A stretch of DNA of 37,052 bases from Candidatus Bipolaricaulota bacterium (GTDB lineage Bacteria > Bipolaricaulota > Bipolaricaulia > UBA7950 > UBA9294): positions 1 to 37,052 of the forward strand of contig JAUWGE010000017.1 in assembly GCA_030606565.1 (NCBI GenBank), given 5' to 3'. The notes under the pieces were generated by a model. It was not told the DNA's origin. It saw nothing but the letters and a program-made list of their open reading frames with translations, and ran no database searches. Made by a program: the position numbers and the translations under genes. The first letter of the stretch is position 1, and each line of letters starts with the position of its first letter. Shown piece after piece: positions 25,474 to 37,052 of the stretch.

Positions 25474-26822
25474 TCCTGCACCTCCTTTTCCTTACGGACA
25501 ACCTTGCGGTAGCCCTCGTCCTTGATCACCACGATGGTCGTCCCCTGAGGGAGAAACCCCTCCTCGCAGATCACGTCCACTCGCTCGTCGGCAAACTCCC
25601 CTGCCCCCACTGGATGGAGGTCAGTCGCGGCCACCCCCCGGCGTCCCACCCAGGGGCTCACCGGACCTTCAGCTTGGCGCCGATCAAACGCTCGGCCGGT
25701 GATAGACGAGGATAGGATTACTCCGCCTAAGCGCAATCTGGACCTGGGGAGCTTGACAAGGAGCAGTATAACCCCTATCAAAGCCACCACAAGGGCACCT
25801 GAGACTACCAGCACCGCTCGCAGCGTCTCCCCCGGCTGCGTGAATGGCCCTACCATCGAGGTGTAGAAGCCCAGTCCAATCGCTACCAGTCCCACAAGCC
25901 CAGCCACCCCGAAGTCAACGGCAGTAAACACGAACACCTCAAGAAAGATCGCCACAAGCCCCCCTAGGAGGAAGATGATCGACTCCCACCCAGCCAGACC
26001 TACAAGGGTGTGAGACCACAAGAAGGCGCCTAGGGAGGCGAGCCCTAGGATACCTGGCACTCCAAAGCCGGGGATGATCATCTCGGCGATGAGTCCCAGC
26101 ACCCCCACGGTGATAAGGAGGGCCGCTACCCACGAACGGGTCAGGATCTCGACCACCGTGTCGACCCATCTGGGAGCGAAGTGGACTACCTCCCCCGCGG
26201 CAAGTTCCTCAAGTTGCAGAAGCTGATCAAGGCTAGCCACCTCTCCGTCGGAGTAGCCCCACTCCACTGCCTCCTGAGCGGTGAGGGTGAGAAGCTTGCC
26301 TCGCTCGACGAGATCCTCGATCTCCACGTCACGATCCACCATCGCCTCGGCGACCTCGGGCGGGCGGCCACGCGTCTCAGCCGTGGCCCGGAAGAGCTTG
26401 CGCGTGGCGGAGATGACCTTCTCTGGTGCCTCCCGCATCATCCCCTTTTCAAAGTAGACAGGGGTAGCGGCTCCCATCACCCCAGCGGGGGCGAAGTAGA
26501 TGTGCTCACAGGCGATGGCGAGGAGTGCTCCGGCCGAGTAGGCCTCCCGATCAACGTAGGCGATTGTGGGAAGGTCTGCGTCCAGGATGGCGTCACGGCC
26601 AGCCACCGCCGAATCCAGGTAGCCTCCGGGGGTGGAAAGCTGTATCACAACAGCCTGGGCCTCGGCAGCGGTCGCCTCCGCCAAGCCCTTACGTAGATAG
26701 GACACGGTACCGCGGCCGATCTCTGTGTCAATGGTGAGTACCCACACCGGCGGGGCCTCCTGTGACACTCCCAGGGAGGCAACAGCAAGCACCAGAGCCA
26801 AAAGCGTAATATATACTCTCAT
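25470..26822 (-). CDS. nfeD: NfeD family membrane-bound serine protease
   Basis: Long NfeD with an N-terminal ClpP-like protease domain, transmembrane helices and a C-terminal OB-fold. A signal peptide spans residues 1-21. The catalytic Ser is S96 in [11 protein letters not shown], after [11 protein letters not shown]; the partner Lys is probably one of those near 135-142 ([13 protein letters not shown]). About four to six helices follow between 230 and 370, then the NfeD tail ending [19 protein letters not shown]. It acts with FloA on membrane protein quality control. The promoter gives a leaderless start; no SD. Confidence 0.92.
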
Positions 26823-26828
26823 GGGTTC

Positions 26829-26858
26829 ATCCTAGGTTGTCATGTCTGGCTCTGTCAA
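26829..26858 (-). promoter_or_regulatory. nfeD-floA promoter (leaderless type)
   Basis: TTGACA (26853-26858), an 18-bp spacer and TAGGAT (26829-26834) on the - strand, six bases before the nfeD ATG. It has the same boxes and spacing as the lipid-kinase promoter. Confidence 0.62.
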
Positions 26859-27108
26859 GTCCCCCAAGACATCGGGTAATGCAGCCACCACCTGTGTTCG
26901 CGCTGCCGGCCGGGATATTTATGGCCTCCTCGGGCCCAACGGCGCCGGGAAGACGACCACCATCCGCGTGCTCGCGGGACTCATCGCTCCCACTTCGGGC
27001 TATGCAGTGGTCGCAGGTATGCGCTTCGACCAGAAGGTGGAGCGACTCCATGAAGACATCGGCCTTCTTCCCGAGGATCCCGGCTTCTACGAGCACCTGG
27101 AGGACTGA
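26842..27108 (+). pseudogene. ABC transporter ATPase fragment
   Basis: About 65 codons of an ABC ATPase: Walker [21 protein letters not shown] and then [13 protein letters not shown] and [14 protein letters not shown], before a stop. The N-terminal strands are missing, as are the Q-loop, signature motif and Walker B. The ATG at 26842 lies inside the nfeD promoter and has no SD, so it is a relic. It marks a rearranged junction between the nfeD operon and the cassette array. Confidence 0.7.
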
Positions 27109-27205
27109 TCGACGGAAGGACAACCCGTGGTGTTCAAAAAAGCAGGTTTGTCGTCGTGCGTTGCGATCGTGGTACGCTCACCATAAGCAAGGGGCAGGCC
27201 TTGCA

Positions 27206-27269
27206 GATAAGGTGTGTGTCCCTCTAATTTTGGGAGATGGGAGATAAGGTATGTGTCCCTCGAATTTTT
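27206..27269. repeat. Two direct repeats (GATAAGGTRTGTGTCCCTC...)
   Basis: GATAAGGTGTGTGTCCCTCT (27206) and GATAAGGTATGTGTCCCTCG (27243) are 37 bp apart and both continue into AATTTT. A diverged third copy (TATGGTTTGCGTCCCTCGAA) lies at 28080-28104. The rest of 27109-27275 has no gene. Confidence 0.7.
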
Positions 27270-27275
27270 ATGGCC

Positions 27276-27324
27276 GCCGCTAATCAGCCGCGCCAGCGGC
27301 GTCGGGTGGAAGCCCTTGTTAGGC
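27276..27324 (-). other. attC-like site, distal end, degenerate
   Basis: On the - strand GCCTAAC (27318-27324) contains the TAA stop of the membrane-protein gene, a common cassette feature. CACCCGACGCCGC and GCGCGGCTGATTAGC then form a short imperfect stem. The right box is only GATTAGC. Either a short or a damaged attC. Confidence 0.5.
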
Positions 27325-27756
27325 GCTGCCGTTAGGGATTGCCCTCTTTCTTGGTCGCCACCAACACACCAGGAATAATATTCCAGGGGTGGTTATTATC
27401 ATCGACAGAAGATAAGGAACCGCTGAACGGGGGAAATCGTGAGTGATCGGACTATGAATTAGAAGCAACGAAAGCGCTGCCAGCTGGAAAACAATGGTAA
27501 TCGTTCCTCCCAATCGCTCCCAACGCCAGGCAATGCCCAATCCCAGGACACTCAGAAACATAAAGATCGGGGGTAAGGCTTCTATGGGGGGATAGTCCTC
27601 CACCGCATGCGGGTCTGCTACACCGGTTGTCACCCAGTTCCATGCATAACCGATAAGCATAAGTAGAGCGTAAACTATGATCGGAAAGCCCCAGATTCGG
27701 GCAATCCAGCGTATCCATTTCGTGACCCGATTACGACTGTCATTACCCTTCGTCAT
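27319..27756 (-). CDS. Cassette: four-helix membrane protein (145 aa)
   Basis: Not assigned a function. Four hydrophobic helices are visible: GFPIIVYALLMLIGYAWNWV, PPIFMFLSVLGLGIAW, TITIVFQLAALSLLLIH and YLLSMIITTPGILFLVCWW, with a basic N-terminus (RNRVTKWIRWIARI) and an Arg/Lys C-terminus. Similar small integral membrane proteins of unknown function (DUF-type) occur in genome islands. CAAGGAGGG precedes the ATG. Its stop codon lies within the attC box, and another attC is immediately upstream, so it is the most distal cassette. Confidence 0.82.
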   Translation of the reverse strand: MTKGNDSRNRVTKWIRWIARIWGFPIIVYALLMLIGYAWNWVTTGVADPHAVEDYPPIEALPPIFMFLSVLGLGIAWRWERLGGTITIVFQLAALSLLLIHSPITHDFPRSAVPYLLSMIITTPGILFLVCWWRPRKRAIPNGSA

Positions 27757-27784
27757 GATCCACCCTCCTTGCTTTTAACACGGT

Positions 27785-27866
27785 GCCCAACGGGGCTGCG
27801 AATAAGCTACGAGCGGAAGGCACGCTTGCGTGCCAGAACGCACGTCAGCTTCATCCACTGTCGGTC
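27785..27866 (-). other. attC site of the RHH/RelE cassette
   Basis: GTTGGGC on the - strand (27785-27791) is an intact right box. The left box is degenerate (GACCGAC). The arms GGATGAAGCTG and CAGCTTATTCG pair around a GGCACGC/GCGTGCC hairpin with an unpaired G. It is nearly the same as the sites at 32234 and 35310. Confidence 0.75.
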
Positions 27867-28118
27867 GGCGCGCAGCGCCGCCCATACAGTAATTATTCTG
27901 CAAGCCCGCAACATAATACCAGGAGCTCTATTTCATGCCAACTGCGAAGAGATGCTTCCGACAGACCGGGTTCGAAGGAAGGATGGCGACAAGGCGACCT
28001 CAGAGGTGAATCGAGGTGTGAAGACTTAATTTGGGCGCATGCTTTCTTAAGATGTTTTCGGAGTTGCAAGCCTCGGAAATATGGTTTGCGTCCCTCGAAT
28101 TCTCTGGATAGCGAGCGT
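27867..28118. other. Gene-free part of the RHH/RelE cassette
   Basis: About 250 bp between the attC and the RelE stop, with no gene. It holds a GGCGCGCAGCGCC hairpin directly after the attC and the third, diverged copy of the TGTCCCTCGAATT repeat (28080-28104). Confidence 0.45.
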
Positions 28119-28409
28119 TTAGGTTTTGATGTAGTTCTTCAAATCCCTGTAGAAGTTCTCGTGTCCTCCAATGGCGAGCAGATAGAGTCTCTTTTCGGGT
28201 TCATCAACAGTGTAGGCAAGGAGGTAGAGTTGGCCGAGGCAAGAGAACTTGTGGACGCGTACGCCCTGCAAGTCTCCGGCCTTCATCTCACCAAGGGTCG
28301 GGTCGCGGCAGAGCAGGTCTACCTGTACGTCGATTTGTTGCCGCAGTGGTTCGGGGAGCTTTTTCTTGATCCGGGCAAATTTGGTGTAGGCAACGGGCTC
28401 CAGCGCCAT
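28119..28409 (-). CDS. RelE/ParE-superfamily toxin
   Basis: Probable mRNA-cleaving or gyrase-targeting toxin of a type II toxin-antitoxin pair. 96 residues with the fold landmarks FARIKKKLPEPLRQQIDVQV (two helices), GDLQGVRVHKFSCLGQLYLL (central strands), LAYTVDEPEKRLYLLAIGGH and a C-terminal FYRDLKNYIK helix. The Arg and Lys of the central strands and the C-terminal Tyr/Lys are the usual active-site types. It starts 9 bp after the antitoxin stop, in antitoxin-toxin order. Confidence 0.85.
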   Translation of the reverse strand: MALEPVAYTKFARIKKKLPEPLRQQIDVQVDLLCRDPTLGEMKAGDLQGVRVHKFSCLGQLYLLAYTVDEPEKRLYLLAIGGHENFYRDLKNYIKT

Positions 28410-28418
28410 GGCGGAAAG

Positions 28419-28643
28419 CTACCCGCGAGGGTAAGGGAGAACATCCCCTTGTTCGATTCCGGCAAGCGCCTCGCGAATATCCGCTTGGAACTGAGGGTGG
28501 AGGGTATTGTACTGATCGACGTAATGTTCCACGGCCATCTTGACGACCGTGCTTAGGCTGCGTTTTTCCAGCCGCGCGATCTCCTCGAGGTGTCTCTTTA
28601 GTTGAGGGTTTACCTTTGTGGAGACTGACTTTGAGCTTGCCAT
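28419..28643 (-). CDS. CopG/RHH-type antitoxin
   Basis: 74 residues: a ribbon strand (SVSTKVNPQLKRHLEEIARL) then two helices (KRSLSTVVKMAVEHYV), the ribbon-helix-helix DNA-binding domain, and an acidic tail (DIREALAGIEQGD) that would bind the RelE-like toxin. GAGGAGG lies upstream at slightly long spacing. It has its own promoter with GTATAC inverted half-sites, which should be its autoregulatory operator. Confidence 0.85.
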   Translation of the reverse strand: MASSKSVSTKVNPQLKRHLEEIARLEKRSLSTVVKMAVEHYVDQYNTLHPQFQADIREALAGIEQGDVLPYPRG

Positions 28644-28682
28644 GCGTCATCCGCCTCCTCTTTCTTGCGTTCTCCAAACAGA

Positions 28683-28711
28683 AGTATAGCATCAAAGGTA
28701 TACGAAGTCAA
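28683..28711 (-). promoter_or_regulatory. Promoter of the RHH/RelE operon
   Basis: TTGACT (28706-28711), a 17-bp spacer and TATACT (28683-28688) on the - strand, about 40 bases before the antitoxin ATG. A promoter inside a cassette is typical for toxin-antitoxin cassettes. Confidence 0.72.
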
Positions 28712-28722
28712 CGAGGTATACC
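28697..28722. promoter_or_regulatory. Probable antitoxin operator
   Basis: Two copies of the palindrome GGTATAC(C) at 28697-28703 and 28715-28722 sit on either side of the -35 box, 18 bp apart. This spacing fits cooperative RHH dimer binding and repression of the operon. Confidence 0.55.
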
Positions 28723-28780
28723 AAGGAATTAATGTTGGGTTGCAAGGCCAGACCCTGCGTGACCGATCACTCGCGATTTC

Positions 28781-28907
28781 GCCTAACGGTTAGCATCACC
28801 CGCCGGGCGGTTGCGGGAAAGAGCCTCCACTACAAGGCACACTGAAAGCGCGTGGAACCGCCGATGTGCGCAACCGATAGCCCGGTCGGGTGCATGCATT
28901 GTTGGGC
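28781..28907 (-). other. attC site of the alpha/beta-hydrolase cassette (127 bp)
   Basis: GCCCAAC (28901-28907) and GTTAGGC (28781-28787) on the - strand. The 5' arm GCATGCACCCGACCGGGC pairs with GCCCGGCGGGTGATGC, leaving an unpaired G and an unpaired A six bases apart. The A is as in known attC top strands. The long variable loop resembles VCR-type sites in size. Confidence 0.9.
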
Positions 28908-28941
28908 GGCTTTTCAAGTGTGACTACCGCGTAGCAACGAC

Positions 28942-29841
28942 TCAGCGGGGAAGCCGTTGCTGCAATACCTCATCCAAAAATGCCTCTAGAACGGCGGTAT
29001 ACGTTTTGGGGAACAGCATGAACGTGTGATGTCCGCCCTCCTCAAAGATATGCGTTCTGGCCCTGGGATACCGTGCTTTCAGTTCTCCCACATGGTCGAT
29101 TGACGACTTGTCGCCCTTGGATGACAGAACTAATATCTCCCCAGGCCAGTGCTGTAGGGCTTCTGACCTGAACACAAAGCTGCGATGGGCTTCTACCCCT
29201 GCTTCCATGAAGCGTAGAAACATCTCCTTGTTGATGTCCAGACTCATCTCCCGAAGGTATGTGCCGCGAAATGCCAACCATTCGCTCGAAGGCGGAAATG
29301 CCCATCCACTTCTCCTTACTAGGCGTAGTATTCGCATCAAGATGGGGAAAGGGAGAATCTTGATCAACTTCAGTTGCTTCTGTAGCCTTGACGTATCTTG
29401 CGCGCCGACAACGCTACAGTGAGAGAATACCACATGCTCTACCTTCTGCGGGTATTCCTGAAGGAAAAACTGGGCGACTCCTGCGCCACCGGAGACCCCA
29501 ATGACCGTTGCTTTCTCTGCCTCTTTGGCGCCAAGGATTGCCGCATGAGCGCGACAGACCTCGTCCATGGCGAACGTTCCCTGCAATGCGTAATTGTCCA
29601 GAGTTATGATTCTATACTTCTTTTCGAAGGCAGTGATGGGGTAGAACCACATATCCGCTCTCATAAACGCACCGGGCATGAAAAGGAGAGTTTTGTCTCC
29701 CTGCCCGCAGGCAATGTAGCGCCAGCGAGCACCCCCGACCTCCAGTTCCTTGTAGGGATGGTTAGCGCGGAATTCCTGTAAGAGCCGCTTCTGTTCAACA
29801 GGAACTTGAGCATAGATTTCGTCGAACTGCAACACCGTCAT
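28942..29841 (-). CDS. Cassette: alpha/beta-fold hydrolase
   Basis: Serine hydrolase of unknown substrate. Nucleophile S117 lies in VIGVSGGAGVAQF, acid D244 in SSKGDKSS, His271 in FEEGGHHTFMLF; oxyanion-side MPGAFMRADMWF is near 55. 299 residues, no signal peptide, cytoplasmic. GGGGGTG precedes the ATG. The stop is 35 bp before an attC. It may be an esterase, lactonase or acyl-transfer enzyme; activity on antibiotics or signals is not indicated by the sequence. Confidence 0.85.
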   Translation of the reverse strand: MTVLQFDEIYAQVPVEQKRLLQEFRANHPYKELEVGGARWRYIACGQGDKTLLFMPGAFMRADMWFYPITAFEKKYRIITLDNYALQGTFAMDEVCRAHAAILGAKEAEKATVIGVSGGAGVAQFFLQEYPQKVEHVVFSHCSVVGAQDTSRLQKQLKLIKILPFPILMRILRLVRRSGWAFPPSSEWLAFRGTYLREMSLDINKEMFLRFMEAGVEAHRSFVFRSEALQHWPGEILVLSSKGDKSSIDHVGELKARYPRARTHIFEEGGHHTFMLFPKTYTAVLEAFLDEVLQQRLPR

Positions 29842-29885
29842 CTTTCACCCCCTACCTGTCAATAGAGATTCTGCCCCCATTCCGA

Positions 29886-29967
29886 CGCGCCGGACAGCAA
29901 GCGGATTGAAATCCGCGGCTCGATGGAGCGGCAGCGGAACACCGTCAGGTGGATGCGTTTGTTGGGC
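29886..29967 (-). other. attC half-site plus 44-bp repeat module
   Basis: GCCCAAC (29961-29967) lies inside the 3' end of the membrane-protein gene and is followed by GCATCCACCTGACGGTG, a good 5' arm with C and A at unpaired positions. No matching 3' arm follows. Instead a 44-bp module (29886-29929) with GCGGATT/AATCCGC begins, shared with 32322-32365. No clear right box. Confidence 0.5.
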
Positions 29968-30544
29968 CGATGGCACGCTTCCAGCTTTCCCATTCATCAG
30001 CCACTTCCTTTAGCGGGTCCAACGAGCGCTCATCGGGGTATACGATACGCCGGTGTTCGCGTGCGCCTGCTGCAAGCACCTGAAACTTCTGCATGTGGGC
30101 CGGTTGTTTGCGCTTCCACCGCTCCGCCGAGACCATAGGTTCCAGATACTGCCAACCCCTGACCAAAGGACGAGAGTAGAAGTCCATCACGAACTCGACG
30201 GGGGCAACACCATGCTTCACCATCACGCCCAGCATATCGTAAGACCTTGCCAGTCTGTCCAGGTTGTTCCTCTCAGAATCCGAGGCCTTCATGATATCGA
30301 AGTTGAGGTCCGCTGCGATTTTCTCCTCAAGGAGATGCCTTTGCTCGCGACACTGCTCCATTATGTCGAAGACGTGACGCAGCGCCTGCACACGCGAAGC
30401 ACGCTCGGCCTCGATGATGGATCTGCGAGACAATGCAAGGTTGCGGCGAAATTGCCGGACGGTGATGATCCAGTAAACAACTCCCAGCACGGCAACAAGC
30501 GCTAGGACCACTGTTGCGATATTGGCTCCATCCTGTAGTGTCAT
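29945..30544 (-). CDS. Cassette: DUF4760-like membrane-anchored protein
   Basis: 199 residues with one N-terminal membrane helix (TVVLALVAVLGVVYWII) and a long helical cytoplasmic domain (RRSIIEAERASRVQALRHVF). SYDMLGVMVKHGVAPVEFVM and DFYSRPLVRGWQYLEPMV look like the DUF4760 family; function unknown. The 3' end runs into the attC box. AAAGGAAAGG is the likely SD. Confidence 0.78.
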   Translation of the reverse strand: MTLQDGANIATVVLALVAVLGVVYWIITVRQFRRNLALSRRSIIEAERASRVQALRHVFDIMEQCREQRHLLEEKIAADLNFDIMKASDSERNNLDRLARSYDMLGVMVKHGVAPVEFVMDFYSRPLVRGWQYLEPMVSAERWKRKQPAHMQKFQVLAAGAREHRRIVYPDERSLDPLKEVADEWESWKRAIGPTNAST

Positions 30545-30568
30545 GTTGCTGCCTTTCCTTTGATGTCA

Positions 30569-30672
30569 GCCCAACGAGCCGCGGATTGAAATCCGCGGCT
30601 CGTTGGAGCGGCTATGGGGCTGGCAAAGGAGCGCAGCGGATTTGCCAGTCCAACTTCAGCCGCGGGTTAGCG
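30569..30672 (-). other. attC site with perfect 17-bp inverted repeat
   Basis: CGCTAAC (30666-30672), 2 bp after the HEPN-like gene's stop, and GTTGGGC (30569-30575) on the - strand. TGGCAAA/TTTGCCA and GTTGGA/TCCAAC stems form the centre, and CCGCGGCT/AGCCGCGG the outer arm. The right end has CCAACGAGCCGCGGATT repeated perfectly inverted (30571-30606), an unusual addition. Confidence 0.75.
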
Positions 30673-30674
30673 TT

Positions 30675-31502
30675 CTATTCCCTTTTCCTGCGCAATTCAC
30701 TGAATTCTTCATCAGTTATTTCACGGTCCTCGTATTGGAAATTGTCGTTAACAACAACTTGAGGCGTGAGAGCTTCAATTCGGTTCTTGGGTCCGACCAG
30801 GAGACAATTTGGCAGATACACTTTACGAATAAACGGTTTACTTTCCCAGCTCTTCTTAATGTAGATCTCGCCTGGGATGTCAGTAATGAACCATGGCTGA
30901 GGGCCGAAGGCACTGAACTGATTCCGGATTATCTCGCGTAAACACAGGATTGCATCCAATGCCAATTCTCTATCATTTCGATCGACTTCAGGACGAAAGT
31001 GAATTGCCTTATGACGCATGTCCTTTAGGTAACGGAACTGCTTGGCGACTTCAGGCAGCAGGATATCCCAAGATTCCAGAGTGTCAATTGGCACGTCCCA
31101 ATTATCGAATGAATCTTTTCGATAGATGTTCTTGTATTCGGGCGTGTGCCTATAATCGTCCCGAAGAATCAAAATCAGGTAATTCAGAATCCGTTCTCCC
31201 AAAGCGCATGCCGAAGTCAGGGCTGGATAATAGGCTCCCATGACGAAAGCAGTTCGGATTTGCTCGAAAAATCGATTATGGAAAGCGATAATCGATAGGG
31301 GCTTATCGCCCAAATCTATGAAGTTCTTCCTCTTCCCATCCTGAGATTGGGCACCATACATGCTTATCAAGGACTTCTCTACTGCAGCCCTGTTTTGAAG
31401 ATGCTGTTTTTTGATATCATCTTCCCATTCGTCACGGATCTTCTGCGTCAACATGTGAACGCGGGTATCAAAGTCGAAGGCAAGGACGCGGTATCGTTTC
31501 AT
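30675..31502 (-). CDS. Cassette: HEPN-like protein (275 aa)
   Basis: Not in a family I can name. The middle (residues 90-170) has a HEPN-type layout: a helix with SACALGERILNYLILIL and, about 55 residues on, FRYLKDMRHKAIHFR, in which R163 and H168 fit the RX4-6H RNase motif. The N-terminus (MKRYRVLAFDFDTRVHMLTQ) and the strand-rich C-terminus (VYLPNCLLVGPKN) are unassigned. If HEPN, it may be a ribonuclease in stress or phage defence. The stop abuts the attC. Confidence 0.75.
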   Translation of the reverse strand: MKRYRVLAFDFDTRVHMLTQKIRDEWEDDIKKQHLQNRAAVEKSLISMYGAQSQDGKRKNFIDLGDKPLSIIAFHNRFFEQIRTAFVMGAYYPALTSACALGERILNYLILILRDDYRHTPEYKNIYRKDSFDNWDVPIDTLESWDILLPEVAKQFRYLKDMRHKAIHFRPEVDRNDRELALDAILCLREIIRNQFSAFGPQPWFITDIPGEIYIKKSWESKPFIRKVYLPNCLLVGPKNRIEALTPQVVVNDNFQYEDREITDEEFSELRRKRE

Positions 31503-31515
31503 ATAGTATCTCTCA

Positions 31516-31577
31516 CACTAACGCCCTCGGCATCAGCTGCGGCGCGCAGCGCCGTCAGCTGCATGCCGTTGTTAGGA
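31516..31577 (-). other. attC site of the HigBA cassette (62 bp)
   Basis: TCCTAAC (31571-31577) and GTTAGTG (31516-31522) on the - strand. The 5' arm CGGCATGCAGCTGACGGC pairs with GCCGCAGCTGATGCCG, leaving unpaired G and A six bases apart. It is short and among the cleanest sites; the HigA stop is 14 bp upstream. Confidence 0.92.
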
Positions 31578-31591
31578 GGCCGTTTCAAACA

Positions 31592-31900
31592 CTAGTCGGT
31601 GGCACGCACAGGCCGAATGCGCCGGAGCTCGGCTGCCTCGGTCTGCTGAGCCCGAAAAAGGTCCCACCGAACCTGGAGATTCATCCAGAACGAGGGCGAG
31701 TTTCCAAAGACTCGGGCCAAGCGCAGCGCCGTGCTGGGGGTGATGCCGCGCCGCTTGTTGATCAGCTCGTTCACACGCTGATAGGGAACGTGGATACGAT
31801 CTGCCAGTTCCCGCTGCGAAATCTCCATCGGCTTGAGAAACTCCTCCAAAAGCATCTCGCCCGGGTGCGTCGGCTCTCGATGGGTCGGTACACGTACCAT
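31592..31900 (-). CDS. higA: HigA-family antitoxin (HTH, addiction module antidote)
   Basis: 102 residues from the ATG at 31900 (GGAGG at seven bases). HPGEMLLEEFLKPMEISQRE is the HigA/VapI-type start; an XRE helix-turn-helix follows (QRELADRIHVPYQRVNELIN), with RGITPSTALRLARVFGNSP and the terminal WMNLQVRWDLFRAQ. It binds HigB and represses the operon. It follows higB by 10 bp, in the usual toxin-antitoxin order of this family. Confidence 0.92.
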   Translation of the reverse strand: MVRVPTHREPTHPGEMLLEEFLKPMEISQRELADRIHVPYQRVNELINKRRGITPSTALRLARVFGNSPSFWMNLQVRWDLFRAQQTEAAELRRIRPVRATD

Positions 31901-31910
31901 TTCCCGCCTC

Positions 31911-32194
31911 CTAATGGTAGTCCACAATCTCTACGTCCGCAGGCCCCATTTCCGTCCAGCGAAAGCAGACTCGGTATCGGTCATTAATCCGAATGCTGAA
32001 TTGGTCCCGTCGACTTCCGGACAGCTGTTCCAAGCAGTTCCCCGGCGGGATTCGGAGTCCACCACCGAGTCCAGCTGATCGAGCTTGCGTCCCGCGATAC
32101 TCCAAAGATTCTGCGGACACGTTCTTCGCGCAACCTTGGTGCTGCGCCCGTTGAAGATGTCCTCGGTTGCCTGGGTTGCGAAGGACCGAATCAT
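31911..32194 (-). pseudogene. higB: HigB toxin gene with one frameshift
   Basis: Begins MIRSFATQATEDIFNGRSTK, followed by AGRKLDQLDSVVDS in one frame, and continues LRIPPGNCLEQLSG and then FSIRINDRYRVCFRWTEMGP in the next, ending EIVDYH. One base is missing near 32055 (GACTCCG where GACCTCCG is expected). Joined, it is a normal HigB of about 93 residues with the R..CFRW toxin core. Either the toxin is dead while the antitoxin survives, or it is an assembly error. Confidence 0.8.
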
Positions 32195-32200
32195 AAACAC

Positions 32201-32229
32201 ATAATAGCACGGCTAGCATGCTATTTCAA
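32201..32229 (-). promoter_or_regulatory. higBA promoter (leaderless type)
   Basis: TTGAAA (32224-32229), a 17-bp spacer and TATTAT (32201-32206) on the - strand; the HigB ATG at 32194 follows six bases later. The spacer contains GCATGCTAGC, part of a possible HigA operator. Confidence 0.68.
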
Positions 32230-32233
32230 GCCC

Positions 32234-32314
32234 TTCTAACGAGCTGCGGATAAGCTGCGAGCGGAAGGCACGCTTGCGTACCAGAACGCACGCCAGCTTC
32301 ATCCGTTGTTGGGA
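32234..32314 (-). other. attC unit B of the kinase cassette (81 bp)
   Basis: TCCCAAC (32308-32314) and GTTAGAA (32234-32240) on the - strand. Arms GGATGAAGCTGGCGTGC and GCAGCTTATCC pair with an unpaired G; central hairpin GGTACGC/GCGTGCC. Nearly the same as 27785-27866 and 35310-35391. Confidence 0.85.
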
Positions 32315-32321
32315 GGCGCTA

Positions 32322-32365
32322 CGCGCCGGACAGCAAGCGGATTGAAACCCGCGGCTCGATGGAGC
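32322..32365. repeat. 44-bp module, copy 2
   Basis: Differs at one base from 29886-29929; it contains CGGACAGCAAGCGG and GCGGCTCGATGGAGC. 30581-30612 shares about 31 of 32 bases with the right part of 29886-29932. It lies between two attC units. Confidence 0.75.
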
Positions 32366-32383
32366 AGGCGCGAAGCGATCGCT

Positions 32384-32509
32384 CCATCGTAGGCGTCAGC
32401 CGCGCCGAACCGCAACCCAGGACGCTGGACTGCTGCCAAACCATTGAAAATCAAAAACGATTGTTAAACGCGGCGCGTGTTCGGCGTCGGCTGCACGCCA
32501 TCGTTAGCC
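32384..32509 (-). other. attC unit A of the kinase cassette
   Basis: GGCTAAC (32503-32509) on the - strand. The 5' arm GGCGTGCAGCCGACGCCGAA (32481-32500 region) pairs with TTCGGCGCGGCTGACGCC (32392-32409), leaving unpaired G and A six bases apart. The right box is replaced by ACGATGG, so this unit may not recombine on its own. The region 32315-32605 has no gene. Confidence 0.72.
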
Positions 32510-32605
32510 CTGTTCAACTCTCTGAAGCCAGCCTTTTGTGTCAGTATTCATAAAACACCACGAGTTACACCCAACAGTTTACATTTTGATGGCGTAAATA
32601 GAGAG

Positions 32606-33553
32606 TTATATATACTTCTGAACAGCCTCGGTTAGCTTACCTAAATGGCTAGGGCCCTCAACTGTTACGGCCGCAAGGTACCCCCATACACGCCATAGAT
32701 CACGTCTTTCCCTAAATCCCAGATCAATGGGCAGTTCATCCTGATAGCCATCAAAAACATCATCCGACACTGTTTGGAAATAGTCGATAAATGCAAGATC
32801 CATTTCCGGATTTCCGTAGTAGACCGCTGGATCAATAACGACCGCTCCCATTTCGGTGCTGATGAAGTTGTTTTGTTGAGCGTCACCATGGAGGAGCGAG
32901 GGCACTATTTCAGGGCCACAAAGCTCGGGAAGGCGTGAAATTAGCTTTTCGACCTGCCGAATTACAACTGGAGGCATATTTCCGGAATCAATTGCCAGTT
33001 TCAAACCTGGCCACAGCCGACGTTCCGCATAGAATGTTGGCCAGTCACTCATCGGAGTGTTATCTTGGTAAAGAGGCCCAAAGTAACCATGTGTTTCTAA
33101 ACCGAACCGATCCCACCTGATCTTATGGATGCGGGCAAGCGTTTGTCCAATTTGTCGCCAGTGGTGAGGGGCTCTATCAACGGCTTTGACTGCCTCAAGG
33201 ACCAAGATGCTTCCACCTGTAACCGGAATAATACCGATTGGACTGGGCGTTAGGACGCCTGAACGTTCAGAGAGGAGTCGCAACCCTGTCAGTTCAATCT
33301 CAAACTGTTCAAATCCATTGGCTGCTTCACTGAATTTGGCAAATACGGAATAGGAACCGTTCGAAAGGATGGCGCCGTGATGACAGGCAAACTCTGTCAT
33401 ATCCCTAGCATCTTTTATTGTCCACTGGCGCCCTATGTGTTCAGAAACAATCTGTTCCACTGGGGTACGAAGTGGACTACTCGCTAATCGAATAGATGGG
33501 ATTCGATTTTGCGATCGATGGACTTTGCTCTTGAGCAACATTCTCGCACACAC
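32606..33553 (-). CDS. Cassette: fructosamine-kinase/APH-fold kinase
   Basis: Protein-kinase-like small-molecule kinase. The catalytic loop LLHGDAQQNNF (H222, D224, N229) and metal motif VVIDPAVYYGNPEMDLAFID (D241) are those of fructosamine-3-kinases. A Gly-rich/Lys strand is GSYSVFAKFSEAANGFEQFE with Lys73. 315 residues; GTG start at 33553 or ATG at 33541, neither with a clear SD. Possible roles are deglycation of proteins or sugar phosphorylation; antibiotic phosphorylation is not suggested by these motifs but cannot be excluded. Confidence 0.85.
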   Translation of the reverse strand: MCARMLLKSKVHRSQNRIPSIRLASSPLRTPVEQIVSEHIGRQWTIKDARDMTEFACHHGAILSNGSYSVFAKFSEAANGFEQFEIELTGLRLLSERSGVLTPSPIGIIPVTGGSILVLEAVKAVDRAPHHWRQIGQTLARIHKIRWDRFGLETHGYFGPLYQDNTPMSDWPTFYAERRLWPGLKLAIDSGNMPPVVIRQVEKLISRLPELCGPEIVPSLLHGDAQQNNFISTEMGAVVIDPAVYYGNPEMDLAFIDYFQTVSDDVFDGYQDELPIDLGFRERRDLWRVWGYLAAVTVEGPSHLGKLTEAVQKYI

Positions 33554-33630
33554 CTATTTATCTGTATTTGGCCAGCTTGAGTTGCATACCAACCTTCGTT
33601 ACGAAAACAAGCAATCCTGTCTATACGAGG

Positions 33631-33710
33631 GGCTAACGAGCCGCGGATCAGCGGTGGACGGAGCGCGAGTTTGCTCGCAACGGAGTCCGTCCGCTGGATC
33701 CGCTGATGGA
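33631..33710 (-). other. attC unit B of the lipoprotein cassette
   Basis: GTTAGCC on the - strand (33631-33637) is the right box. Arms GGATCCAGCGG and CCGCTGATCC pair, leaving an unpaired C, the base seen in canonical sites. The left box is degenerate (GTCCATCA). Confidence 0.65.
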
Positions 33711-33730
33711 CGGCGCTTCGCGCCCGCTTC

Positions 33731-33815
33731 ATCGACCAAGATCAGCCGCCGCTGCAAGCGGTCGGCTTGCTTGCCGATCTCCTTGTCGCAGTCTGTGCAG
33801 TGGTTGGTCACGTGA
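33731..33815 (-). other. Possible attC unit A of the lipoprotein cassette
   Basis: CAAGCAAGCCGACCGC pairs imperfectly with GCGGCGGCTGATCTTG around a small loop, with an unpaired A. A left box near 33810 (GACCAAC) is poor, and GTCGATGA stands at the right-box position, as in the other tandem sites. No gene lies in 33554-33858. Confidence 0.38.
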
Positions 33816-33858
33816 CCCCACGTATTGGTTCTATTCGTTGCGGCGCAGCACTTCCGCT

Positions 33859-34482
33859 CTACGGGCTTTCGTTGAGCACCGTTGAAGGCCAGGAGTCCAC
33901 ACCCTCATCGGGGGCACTCACCAGGTAGACGCGCCATCGGCTGTCTCTGTCCGTCACCATGCGAAAGACGACCTCGCCGCTCACCCCGTCCACATCGGCG
34001 ATCACATCCACAGCCTGCTCGCCGTCACGCGTCTCCGAGTCTTTGCTACGGAGAATATCTAGGACACCTCTCAAGTCGATCAACAGATCATCTTCCTTGG
34101 CCGCGTAAAGCATGATCTGGTCGAAGAAGTACCAGGAGTCCATTTGCGTATTGAACATCTCCCGAAAGTCCAAATCATCCATCAAGCCCTCATCTGCGTC
34201 TTCCCCGATCAAATGCCGCCAGCTGAATGTCTGGACGTTTTCCATCCGCAGCAGCCTCTGCGCCTCGACATCGAGCACCAGGTAGACGGTCATAAAGTCT
34301 TCCCGCTGAAAGGCCTTGGCGAAGGTCTGAACCGCGTCTTCGGGCGTCTCCAGGTTGAGCGATTCATAATAGGTTCGGGCGTCGTTTTCCTCACCTGATT
34401 CCAGCATCCCACCGGACTGGCAGGCCAGTGTCACCAGCAGCACTGCCAGTATGATCGTGATCAGCTGCGTGTGTTCTTTCAT
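33859..34482 (-). CDS. Cassette: lipoprotein, function unknown
   Basis: The frame opens at 34515; the ATG at 34482 (GGAGC upstream) starts a clear lipoprotein signal, MKEHTQLITIILAVLLVTLA then CQSGG, with lipobox LAC. The mature part (about 186 residues) is acidic and mixed alpha/beta: PEDAVQTFAKAFQREDFMTV resembles the start of NTF2-like or DUF4878-like domains, and VVFRMVTDRDSRWRVYLV is a strand pair at the end. No catalytic motif. It is exported and membrane-attached. Confidence 0.8.
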   Translation of the reverse strand: MKEHTQLITIILAVLLVTLACQSGGMLESGEENDARTYYESLNLETPEDAVQTFAKAFQREDFMTVYLVLDVEAQRLLRMENVQTFSWRHLIGEDADEGLMDDLDFREMFNTQMDSWYFFDQIMLYAAKEDDLLIDLRGVLDILRSKDSETRDGEQAVDVIADVDGVSGEVVFRMVTDRDSRWRVYLVSAPDEGVDSWPSTVLNESP

Positions 34483-34543
34483 ACGTAGCTCCTTCCTCGG
34501 TTGTGATGAATTCACCTACTGTTCGTACTGAGATGGTTTAGCC

Positions 34544-34669
34544 GCCCAACGAAATAATCAGCCGCCCGCCGGATTGGCATTCCAACATAATTTGATTATA
34601 GCCAAAATCTGCAAATTTCACGCCGCTTACCCTCCGCCGCAGGCGGGTCGGCTGCATTAAGGGTTAGGC
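34544..34669 (-). other. attC site of the methyltransferase-like cassette (126 bp)
   Basis: GCCTAAC (34663-34669) and GTTGGGC (34544-34550) on the - strand. The 5' arm AATGCAGCCGACCCGCC pairs with GGCGGGCGGCTGATT, leaving unpaired G and A six bases apart. The AT-rich loop contains TATAAT on the - strand. Along with 28781 and 31516 it is the best-formed site. Confidence 0.92.
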
Positions 34670-35309: not shown

Positions 35310-35391
35310 GCCCAACGGGGCTGCGGATAAGCTGCGAGCGGAAGGCACGCTTGCGTGCCAGAACGCACGCCAGCTTCATCCGTTGTCGGGA
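35310..35391 (-). other. attC unit B of the proximal cassette (82 bp)
   Basis: GTTGGGC (35310-35316) is the right box on the - strand; the left box is TCCCGAC (35385-35391), one base off. Arms GGATGAAGCTGGCGTGC and CGCAGCTTATCC, hairpin GGCACGC/GCGTGCC. Closest relatives are 27785-27866 and 32234-32314. Confidence 0.82.
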
Positions 35392-35408
35392 GGCGCTTCG
35401 CGCCCGCT

Positions 35409-35468
35409 CCATCGATCGGCTTCAGTTGCGCCGGTTTCTTGGCGTCAACTGGAAGCCGCTGGTTAGCT
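35409..35468 (-). other. attC unit A of the proximal cassette
   Basis: AGCTAAC (35462-35468) overlaps the stop of the PD-(D/E)XK-like gene. CGGCTTCCAGTTGACGCC pairs with GGCGCAACTGAAGCCG, leaving unpaired C and A six bases apart, matching the canonical pattern. The right box is replaced by ATCGATGG. It is separated from unit B by a GGGCGCGAAGCGCC hairpin. Confidence 0.75.
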
Positions 35469-36842
35469 GACGTCCGGGTCGGGCGGGCTTTGTATCGGGA
35501 TACTTGAAGATTCATTTTCTGGTACCTGTTCTATTTCCTTTGGTAACTTGGGGGCACGAGGCACATATGGAACTAAACCCTCTACCACCTTTCGGTAAAA
35601 ACGTTCGAGATTGACTGAAATCCCCTCAAGTGCTTTTTCGCTGGAACGGCCCCTCTGAAGAGATGTTGTCCAATTGATCAAAAACTTTTTAGGGAAGGCA
35701 TTCTTAGGAATAGAAGCTTTATTAGTATCGCGCAATAATGAGGAGCCATCTTCAACAAGATCGCGTAAACTTCCCTGTGATAGCATTCCGCGCTGATCCC
35801 ACTGGACCGTTACAACGAGATCGCCTGGAACATTTGAGAGACTTCGGAGTTGTCGCAATAGCCAGTTTACCCGTGTTGCCTGACGTCCGTCAGTTGGCGC
35901 ATCGAGGACAACCCGATATCTGACGGTCTTTGCTAGAAGAAAGACATCTATCCAAATGTCTCCTACTGCATCAGGAATTTTCAGAATTCCCGATAGTTGT
36001 CCACTTTTTATAGCGGAGGAATGGATCCGCTTTATTCGGCCATCCGGATCGTGTCTGTCACTTCTGGAAATTTTCGGCTGAACTTCTACCCCAAGCTTTG
36101 CACGCAGTCGTAGCGCCGCTTTCTTAAGGAAACCATCCCAGTGCCTTACGACGTCTTCTAAGTATGATGATGCTGCGTGGAGATCTCCCGTTCGGGCAGA
36201 TTTCAATACATCGTGCCAGTGTTTTCCTAGATTTGGTTTCGCAATGATTTGTGAGCCGTCATCATCAACGTAACGAATCCATTCGTCCAGCATCCACTTC
36301 TGATCCGAGTCCTGGATAGCCTTTTTCCGGCAAAGCATTTGAGCCTCGCTAAAAAGGCGTTCCCAAGAAACATGGAACACGGGCACGCTTCGAAGTCGGC
36401 GGCCATCAACTCGGAGGGGCGGAAGTCCATTCAACTGAGCAGGCTGGTTGCTAATAGTGATCAAGGCATCGAACTTTTCGGCGATTGATAGCAAATGGTA
36501 AATGTCGAACTGGTCTTGATCTAAAGGGTTGTTCCCGACCTTAACCTCCAGAAGGGCCTTCCACTCTGTTTTGCCCCGAACTACACGAATAATTCCATCT
36601 GGGCGTCGTTTGACGGGGCCTTTTCCCTTTTCGCCCTCAAGCTCAAATTCGACCTCGGTATAACAGGTCAACTTCCCTGCGGGACCTCCTACCATTCGCA
36701 CGAGAGCGCGTCCGAATTCAGATACTGCCCTCACCATTGCCAGCAAAGATGCGGTGGCTCGCAGCTCCGCCTCCCTTACAGACGAGATGTGACTTGAAGG
36801 AAAAAGCCTGACCTCATGTTGTTTCTTTTTCTCGAAATCCAA
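35463..36842 (-). CDS. Cassette: PD-(D/E)XK-nuclease-like protein (459 aa)
   Basis: First cassette after the candidate promoter. Residues 78-120 read KRRPDGIIRVVRG, KTEWKALLEVKVGNNPLDQD and FDIYHLL. This fits the PD-(D/E)XK core (D82, E99, K101) with a following Q (109/111), as in restriction-type nucleases; an N-terminal helix supplies E24/E26. The remaining 300 residues are unrecognised, with WISFL-free mixed alpha/beta and a basic region. TTG start at 36842 behind AAGGAGG. A defence or stress nuclease is the most likely role; the catalytic assignment is by motif only. Confidence 0.72.
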   Translation of the reverse strand: MDFEKKKQHEVRLFPSSHISSVREAELRATASLLAMVRAVSEFGRALVRMVGGPAGKLTCYTEVEFELEGEKGKGPVKRRPDGIIRVVRGKTEWKALLEVKVGNNPLDQDQFDIYHLLSIAEKFDALITISNQPAQLNGLPPLRVDGRRLRSVPVFHVSWERLFSEAQMLCRKKAIQDSDQKWMLDEWIRYVDDDGSQIIAKPNLGKHWHDVLKSARTGDLHAASSYLEDVVRHWDGFLKKAALRLRAKLGVEVQPKISRSDRHDPDGRIKRIHSSAIKSGQLSGILKIPDAVGDIWIDVFLLAKTVRYRVVLDAPTDGRQATRVNWLLRQLRSLSNVPGDLVVTVQWDQRGMLSQGSLRDLVEDGSSLLRDTNKASIPKNAFPKKFLINWTTSLQRGRSSEKALEGISVNLERFYRKVVEGLVPYVPRAPKLPKEIEQVPENESSSIPIQSPPDPDVS

Positions 36843-36914: not shown

Positions 36915-36921
36915 AGCTAAC
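36915..36921 (-). other. Possible attI recombination box
   Basis: GTTAGCT on the - strand fits GTTRRRY and lies between the promoter at 36947-36975 and the first cassette gene. No attC arms precede it, as expected for attI. Placement is the main evidence; a single 7-bp box is weak. Confidence 0.4.
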
Positions 36922-36946
36922 AATGATTATCGTGCAACCCTGCAAT

Positions 36947-36975
36947 ATAATATATCCACAAGTAGCTAATGTCAA
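36947..36975 (-). promoter_or_regulatory. Candidate cassette promoter (Pc-like)
   Basis: TTGACA (36970-36975), a 17-bp spacer and TATTAT (36947-36952) on the - strand, near-consensus and directed into the array. It lies 105 bases before the first cassette gene's start. The remaining bases to 37052 show nothing else I can identify. Confidence 0.65.
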
Positions 36976-37052
36976 CTCTAGCCGCCAGGAAACCTCTTGA
37001 ATAGCCCGCAGATCACACCAGCATGCGATCTCCCCGACGACGCAATGATACA

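Follow-up and report, generated by a model that had tools for sequence, protein, structure and literature searches.

The 37,052-nt stretch of DNA analyzed here (the window) is the complete contig C23 of a 1.81-Mb Bipolaricaulota assembly (G000) that is 91% complete. At its right end lies what we take, with about three chances in four, to be an orphan integron head. In such a head, a cassette promoter (Pc) would directly adjoin an attI-type crossover site at which cassette 1 is attached (G|TTAGCT); it would derive from a canonical head whose divergent intI was truncated or lost, the module then having been multiplied in the genus.

The promoter, the box and the cassette array

The elements concerned are the following (R1 is the profile of the repeated module described below, and G001:C99 is the corresponding contig of a sister species).

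36970-36975, minus strand: −35 hexamer TTGACA of the putative Pc (mean of 1.63 bits per position over 13 nonredundant copies)
36947-36952, minus strand: −10 hexamer TATTAT, 17 nt from the −35 hexamer (mean of 1.40 bits versus 0.54 for the spacer)
36921-36978, minus strand: 58-nt repeated core of the candidate Pc-attI module, its last base being the G of the crossover box (R1, 53.6 bits)
36915-36921, minus strand: putative crossover box GTTAGCT (homology with the sister species stops at +1 of the G)
36979-37052, minus strand: flank running from the module to the contig end (11 differences from G001:C99 over 74 aligned positions)
35463-36842, minus strand: first cassette gene, encoding 459 aa (without matches in Pfam, PADLOC, or NCBIfam)
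35310-35468, minus strand: attC region of cassette 1, probably composite (R'' AGCTAAC at 35468-35462, R' GTTGGGC at 35316-35310)
34544-34669, minus strand: attC of cassette 2 (strict attC pattern)
28781-28907, minus strand: attC further along the array (strict attC pattern)
27319-34515, minus strand: remaining codirectional cassette array (open reading frames and domain matches)
27887-27943, minus strand: second copy of the module, within the array (R1, 41.1 bits)

Both TTGACA-17-TATTAT and GTTAGCT are present as the sequence-only reading had claimed, with 25 nt separating TATTAT (which ends at 36947 on the minus strand) from GTTAGCT (which starts at 36921). The promoter is above chance, since TTGACA-N17-TATNAT occurs once in the 37-kb window versus 0.02 expected from shuffles, but the box alone is not. 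Four GTTAGCT heptamers were found in the window versus 2.4 expected, and at least four were reached in 22 of 100 shuffles; GTTRRRY motifs in the window were likewise at chance level (52 versus 54 expected), and the box is itself one letter off strict RRRY. It is the recurrence of the element in the same genome that raises the pair of promoter and box above chance. We discarded the possibility that the flank is coding (MRSPRRRNDT), because in the sister this frame terminates two codons further on.

The 459-aa gene and the array share one strand, and the order of promoter, attI-type crossover site and cassette 1 holds, the same layout being found in a canonical integron of the genus (L127). It is a rule of cassettes that R'' is complementary to the box, and the AGCTAAC in the attC region 3' of the 459-aa gene is the complement of GTTAGCT; such complementarity is also present in the integron of G003. 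The G of the box would thus be supplied by the module and TTAGCT by cassette 1. Because the attC alignment was too gapped for a useful covariance model, we relied instead on the complementarity test and on a strict attC pattern, which gave three pairs in the 27.3- to 36.9-kb array, versus 0.04 in shuffles of that region, and one pair in the remaining 27.3 kb of the window. One of the three overlaps another and may be a chance match, leaving two that are clear. With at least two attC sites and no full-length integrase in the genome, the 27.3- to 36.9-kb array is a CALIN, that is, a cluster of attC sites lacking an integrase.

The cargo of the array between 27319 and 34515 includes a fructosamine kinase, a HigB-like toxin with a helix-turn-helix (HTH) partner, DUF4760, a hydrolase, DUF7670, and others. 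The toxin and its partner (31592-32219, minus strand) are 94% conserved in G001:C99. At the internal module (27785-27943, minus strand), an attC-like sequence comes next, with no gene between, and is followed by the DUF7670 gene; locus L096 (G000:C40) has the same order of module, attC-like sequence, and gene. REP-like repeats with GGGACRCATACC and GGTCTATGTCCC arms lie beside modules and between genes (27205-27268 and 28077-28103 in the window), and they also occur upstream of many modules.

Copies of the module and their junctions

A blastn search with the element found six places in the same genome, itself included. Profile R1, a sequence-only model of 58 positions made after aligning 19 copies from five genomes, found 14 copies in the window's genome, 21, 7, and 2 in three relatives of the same genus, and 1 to 5 in nine further genomes, so that 13 of the 33 genomes of the family had matches at an E value of ≤0.01. 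At an E value of ≤1e-4, matches were present in 8 of 100 genomes of the class, and under the stricter filters of that search the four genomes of the genus held 13, 19, 6, and 2 copies. Modules lying <10 kb apart were on the same strand in all 13 neighboring pairs, and up to six were found in one array (on C99, over 18 kb), which suggests that the arrays are divided into separately promoted blocks. A search of viral contigs with the pattern TTGCACANTAATCATTGTTRG found nothing, while one of genome contigs with TTGCNNNNTTGCNNNNTAATCATTGTT found five stretches, four of them in Bipolaricaulota metagenome-assembled genomes; the stretch matched in Azospirillum picis is without an R1 match and was dropped as a chance hit. 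One copy lies on a contig (L097, G000:C4, 4.3 kb in its entirety) that shares 98% identity over 4 kb with G030:C113, a contig from a different genus, which may reflect recent transfer or a misbinned contig.

Over the 13 nonredundant copies, the 26-nt core GTTGCAGAGTTGCACAATAATCATTG had 1.46 bits per position, and the difference between the promoter hexamers and the 17-nt spacer was reached in none of 20,000 column permutations; conservation measured over copies found by a profile is biased toward that profile. The hexamers, a putative promoter reading into cassette 1, are less variable than the spacer. For the tests of boxes, complements, and integrase remnants, we used 51 of the 57 R1 rows, excluding six weak ones (one each in G007, G009, G012, G014, G017, and G030). 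After the last base of the module, these 51 copies have T (35 copies), T (41), A or G (41), G (41), A or G (39), and C or T (30), and the consensus is lost beyond this sixth base, so that conservation spans CATTG|TTRRRY. The box begins with GTT in 26 copies, whose 12-mers are all different, and not in the other 25.

Complements of the box were sought 60 to 3,500 nt downstream in the 46 copies with at least 1.2 kb of downstream sequence, with boxes swapped among copies as the control. Exact complements of at least 8 nt were found for 11 copies (5.0% with swapped boxes), of at least 9 nt for 7 (1.8%), and of at least 10 nt for 4 (0.6%); with the G omitted, complements of at least 10 nt were found for 5 (0.3%). 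In 28 of the 46 copies, no exact complement of even 7 nt was present in that range, and this, together with the 25 boxes that are not GTT, indicates that many copies are without a recognizable cassette. In eight-letter searches of single loci, the complement was present in two of six cases, and at L036 and L003 some genes between two modules have no attC recognizable by eye. The first genes behind 20 scanned copies are mutually unrelated and include an adenylyltransferase, a metallo-hydrolase, TIR proteins, HNH and DpnII-like nucleases, FRG, RibD, APH, a trypsin-like peptidase, and a DUF. Nine others have no Pfam match, and PADLOC classifies one of them as a CBASS-type cyclase.

Read in reverse, contig G001:C99 follows the same order as the window in four blocks.

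25665-27229: 95% identity
27759-29931: 96% identity
31570-32258: 94% identity
36920-37052: 83% identity

The outer modules of the two loci correspond to each other. Between them, G001 has ~18 kb and four more modules, whereas the window has 9 kb and none. The module at the contig end agrees with its G001 counterpart at 56 of 58 core bases, the homology stops at +1 of the G, and the genes behind the break are unrelated. A break at this base resembles an attI crossover. The GTTAGCT box with its complementary AGCTAAC, the consensus over 51 copies, and this break at +1 together point to a putative attI core of the GTTRRRY type, behind which cassettes are joined at G|TT. Other pairs behave variously: homology stops at −6 in a second orthologous pair (C17/C52), continues for 700 nt in a third (C44/C55) and for 128 nt in a fourth (the 27887 module), and in a fifth, from different genera (C4/C113), identity is 97% from −145 to at least +1500. 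Of eight pairs of copies in which core and flank were compared, one had the better-conserved core (that of the window, P = 0.04), three had a core less well conserved than the flank, and four showed no significant difference; with so mixed a result, present constraint on the core is unproven.

Integrase remnants, the DNA beyond the contig end and alternative explanations

A decayed, divergent integrase N terminus is kept at seven copies, in agreement with the Pc-attI order proposed from the sequence. An N-terminal IntI profile (11 sequences), which performed better than a full-length integrase HMM on 1.5-kb flanks, was compared with translations of both strands over 700 nt on either side of the 51 copies. 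Divergent matches at these seven were offset by 45 to 46 codons from the box and scored 2.5 to 22.9 bits. The nine best matches all exceeded 2 bits, and these seven were upstream, in frames reading away from the cassettes; the other two were a remnant upstream of the next C99 module, which is degenerate (2.3e-07), and an off-register match in G030. The sense frames of the 51 copies gave no IntI N-terminal match above 2 bits. The seven in-register remnants lie on C99 (three copies), on C277, on C52, on C17 of the window's genome, and on C28 of G003 (for example, MKLLDQVQQVCRAKHYL on C17 and MKLFDQIHQACVTKHYSPRTE on C277). Two are significant alone (E values of 2.4e-06 and 8.6e-05), one has an E value of 0.012, and four are weak, the weaker five ranging from 0.012 to 4.5. 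Close similarity among those on C17, C52, and C28, and 95% similarity between two of the C99 copies, reduces the seven to about three lineages. The remnants suggest that the module is the leftover of heads whose intI pointed away from the cassettes. On C99 (L086, 6640-9830), three successive repeats of ~0.4 to 0.5 kb carry a decayed integrase N terminus; after each comes a module, in some cases degenerate, and then a different gene.

No full-length integrase was found in the window's 91%-complete genome, where only partial tyrosine recombinase or integron integrase matches were present, none over the TIGR02249 cutoff; a complete integron is thus not seen there. Of 60 genomes searched, two had matches over the cutoff, G002 (L102, contig C39) and G003 (L127, contig C137). 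The integron of G003 has the canonical layout, with a divergent intI, TTGACA-17-TAGAAT, the box GTTAGCC, and a cassette whose R'' is complementary over 12 nt; its contig ends inside the integrase gene. This integrase (L017/L127) has ~110 extra N-terminal residues before the integron integrase domain. In G002, intI is co-oriented and reads toward its own attI and cassettes, a layout that has been described for Treponema (PMC3607928). Homology of the module to the attI sites of these two integrases was considered and dropped: R1 finds no match to them up to an E value of 10, and in a forced alignment only the last bases are alike. A second kind of integron head occurs in the window's genome at L103 (G000:C11, 1660-1985), where a C-terminal integrase relic precedes an attI like that of the co-oriented integron of G002, followed by a cassette gene with an attC.

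The sequence-only reading had also predicted an intact integrase gene just past 37052, which would make the locus a complete canonical integron. The window being a whole contig, the DNA to its right is not directly readable. In favor of the prediction, the layout fits, an integron of this type exists in the genus (L127), and an integrase domain would be expected to have begun near 37059, ~138 nt from the box and just outside the contig. The collinear sister argues otherwise: outward of the same module, G001 has 144 nt of flank homologous to the window and then genes for a GntR-domain protein (Pfam, 2.5e-17), an ABC transporter ATPase (Pfam, 2.5e-23), DUF4097, an ABC-2 permease, and others, with no IntI match in the first 12.1 kb of its contig (G001:C99:1-12100). 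The integrase contigs of the genus (G002:C39 and G003:C137) carry no R1 match. When the sister's GntR and ABC genes were sought elsewhere in the window's genome, nothing convincing was found beyond the window's own edge, which fits, without proving, their location in an unassembled neighborhood. The neighbor of the module beyond 37052 is therefore most likely chromosomal (GntR and ABC transporter genes) rather than intI, the prediction of an intact integrase is left unsupported, and a complete integron here seems very improbable.

Could the repeated element be something other than an integron head? A mobile promoter or REP-associated repeat that landed upstream of genes, its GTT being incidental and no recombination site being involved, would account for the REP-like palindromes upstream of many copies and for the several units that end in a REP-like repeat instead of an attC. 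We consider this unlikely, since the REP-type flank is not common to all copies, the GTTRRRY pattern extends over 26 different box sequences, the R'' complements exceed the swapped-box control, and the integrase N termini lie upstream in register. Another candidate is an operator and promoter shared by the members of a regulon with many defense-like genes: several first genes are of the TIR, CD-NTase, or restriction type, and many copies have a partial palindrome (CGACAT-ACT-ATGTTG) as their −10 region. Yet the palindrome is missing from diverged copies, the window's included, the cargo is mixed (adenylyltransferase, APH, RibD, and DUFs), and box and integrase remnants alike would be left unexplained, so that we give a regulon little credence. 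As for a chance promoter-like sequence beside a chance heptamer, the heptamer alone is at chance level, but the same spacing recurs in 14 places and the promoter pattern is expected 0.02 times; the copies refute it, and we regard it as scarcely tenable.

The orphan-head reading would entail the following steps. The ancestor would have been a canonical integron head, in which the divergent intI was truncated or lost while Pc and attI were kept, and the short module left behind would then have multiplied in this Bipolaricaulota genus. Cassettes would have been joined at G|TT through recombination by an integron integrase that either worked from a different locus or was there at the time the copies arose, and the Pc of each module would drive cassette 1 and the genes behind it.

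Comparison with known integrons

A canonical Pc-attI head shares with the module the promoter, the attI core, the G|TTRRRY junction, cassette 1, and, as remnants at a fixed distance, the divergent intI. Here, in contrast, the copies' contigs carry no full-length intI, and a genome can hold as many as 21 copies and a single array as many as six. The attG sites, at which integron cassettes insert into the genome, are arbitrary targets, whereas the module is one repeated, homologous sequence. In both cases cassettes are joined to DNA away from a primary attI, as is mentioned for attG (PMC12901181).

Delta-attI-type cassettes of class 1 and class 2 integrons place attI fragments inside arrays (PMC12901181). 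They resemble the present arrangement in having attI material 3' of a gene within arrays, and the core AATAAAATGTTRRRY reported in the same source resembles ATAATCATTGTTRRRY. Seven of the eight types reported keep only 14 to 18 nt of attI, in mobile integrons (PMC12901181); the piece found here, unlike these, includes a promoter and belongs to arrays from an uncultured phylum. CALINs are known (PMC9024848), and intI pseudogenes are described as common, many being likely intragenomic duplicates (PMC2426708). These too are cassette arrays without an intact integrase, but here the Pc-attI module is retained, multiplied, and recurrent inside arrays. We found no report, in a search of the open-licence PMC literature that included the phylum names, of a promoter-bearing attI module multiplied within and between arrays.

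A bolder interpretation, which we hold only tentatively and with the odds against it, is that of a distributed integron, in which many Pc-attI platforms of one genome are kept apart from any integrase and cassettes may be loaded at each of them by one integrase that acts in trans or is acquired occasionally. Integrons are described as having a single attI and a single Pc, which confines expression mainly to the first cassettes. If the integron were distributed, blocks would each start with their own promoter, and expression would be independent of first place in an array. A genus in which multiplied Pc-attI modules punctuate the arrays would offer a natural test of array expression and upkeep after integrase loss, and of the possibility that attI sites are used in trans, and it illustrates how orphan integron heads can be recognized in genomes without an intact intI.
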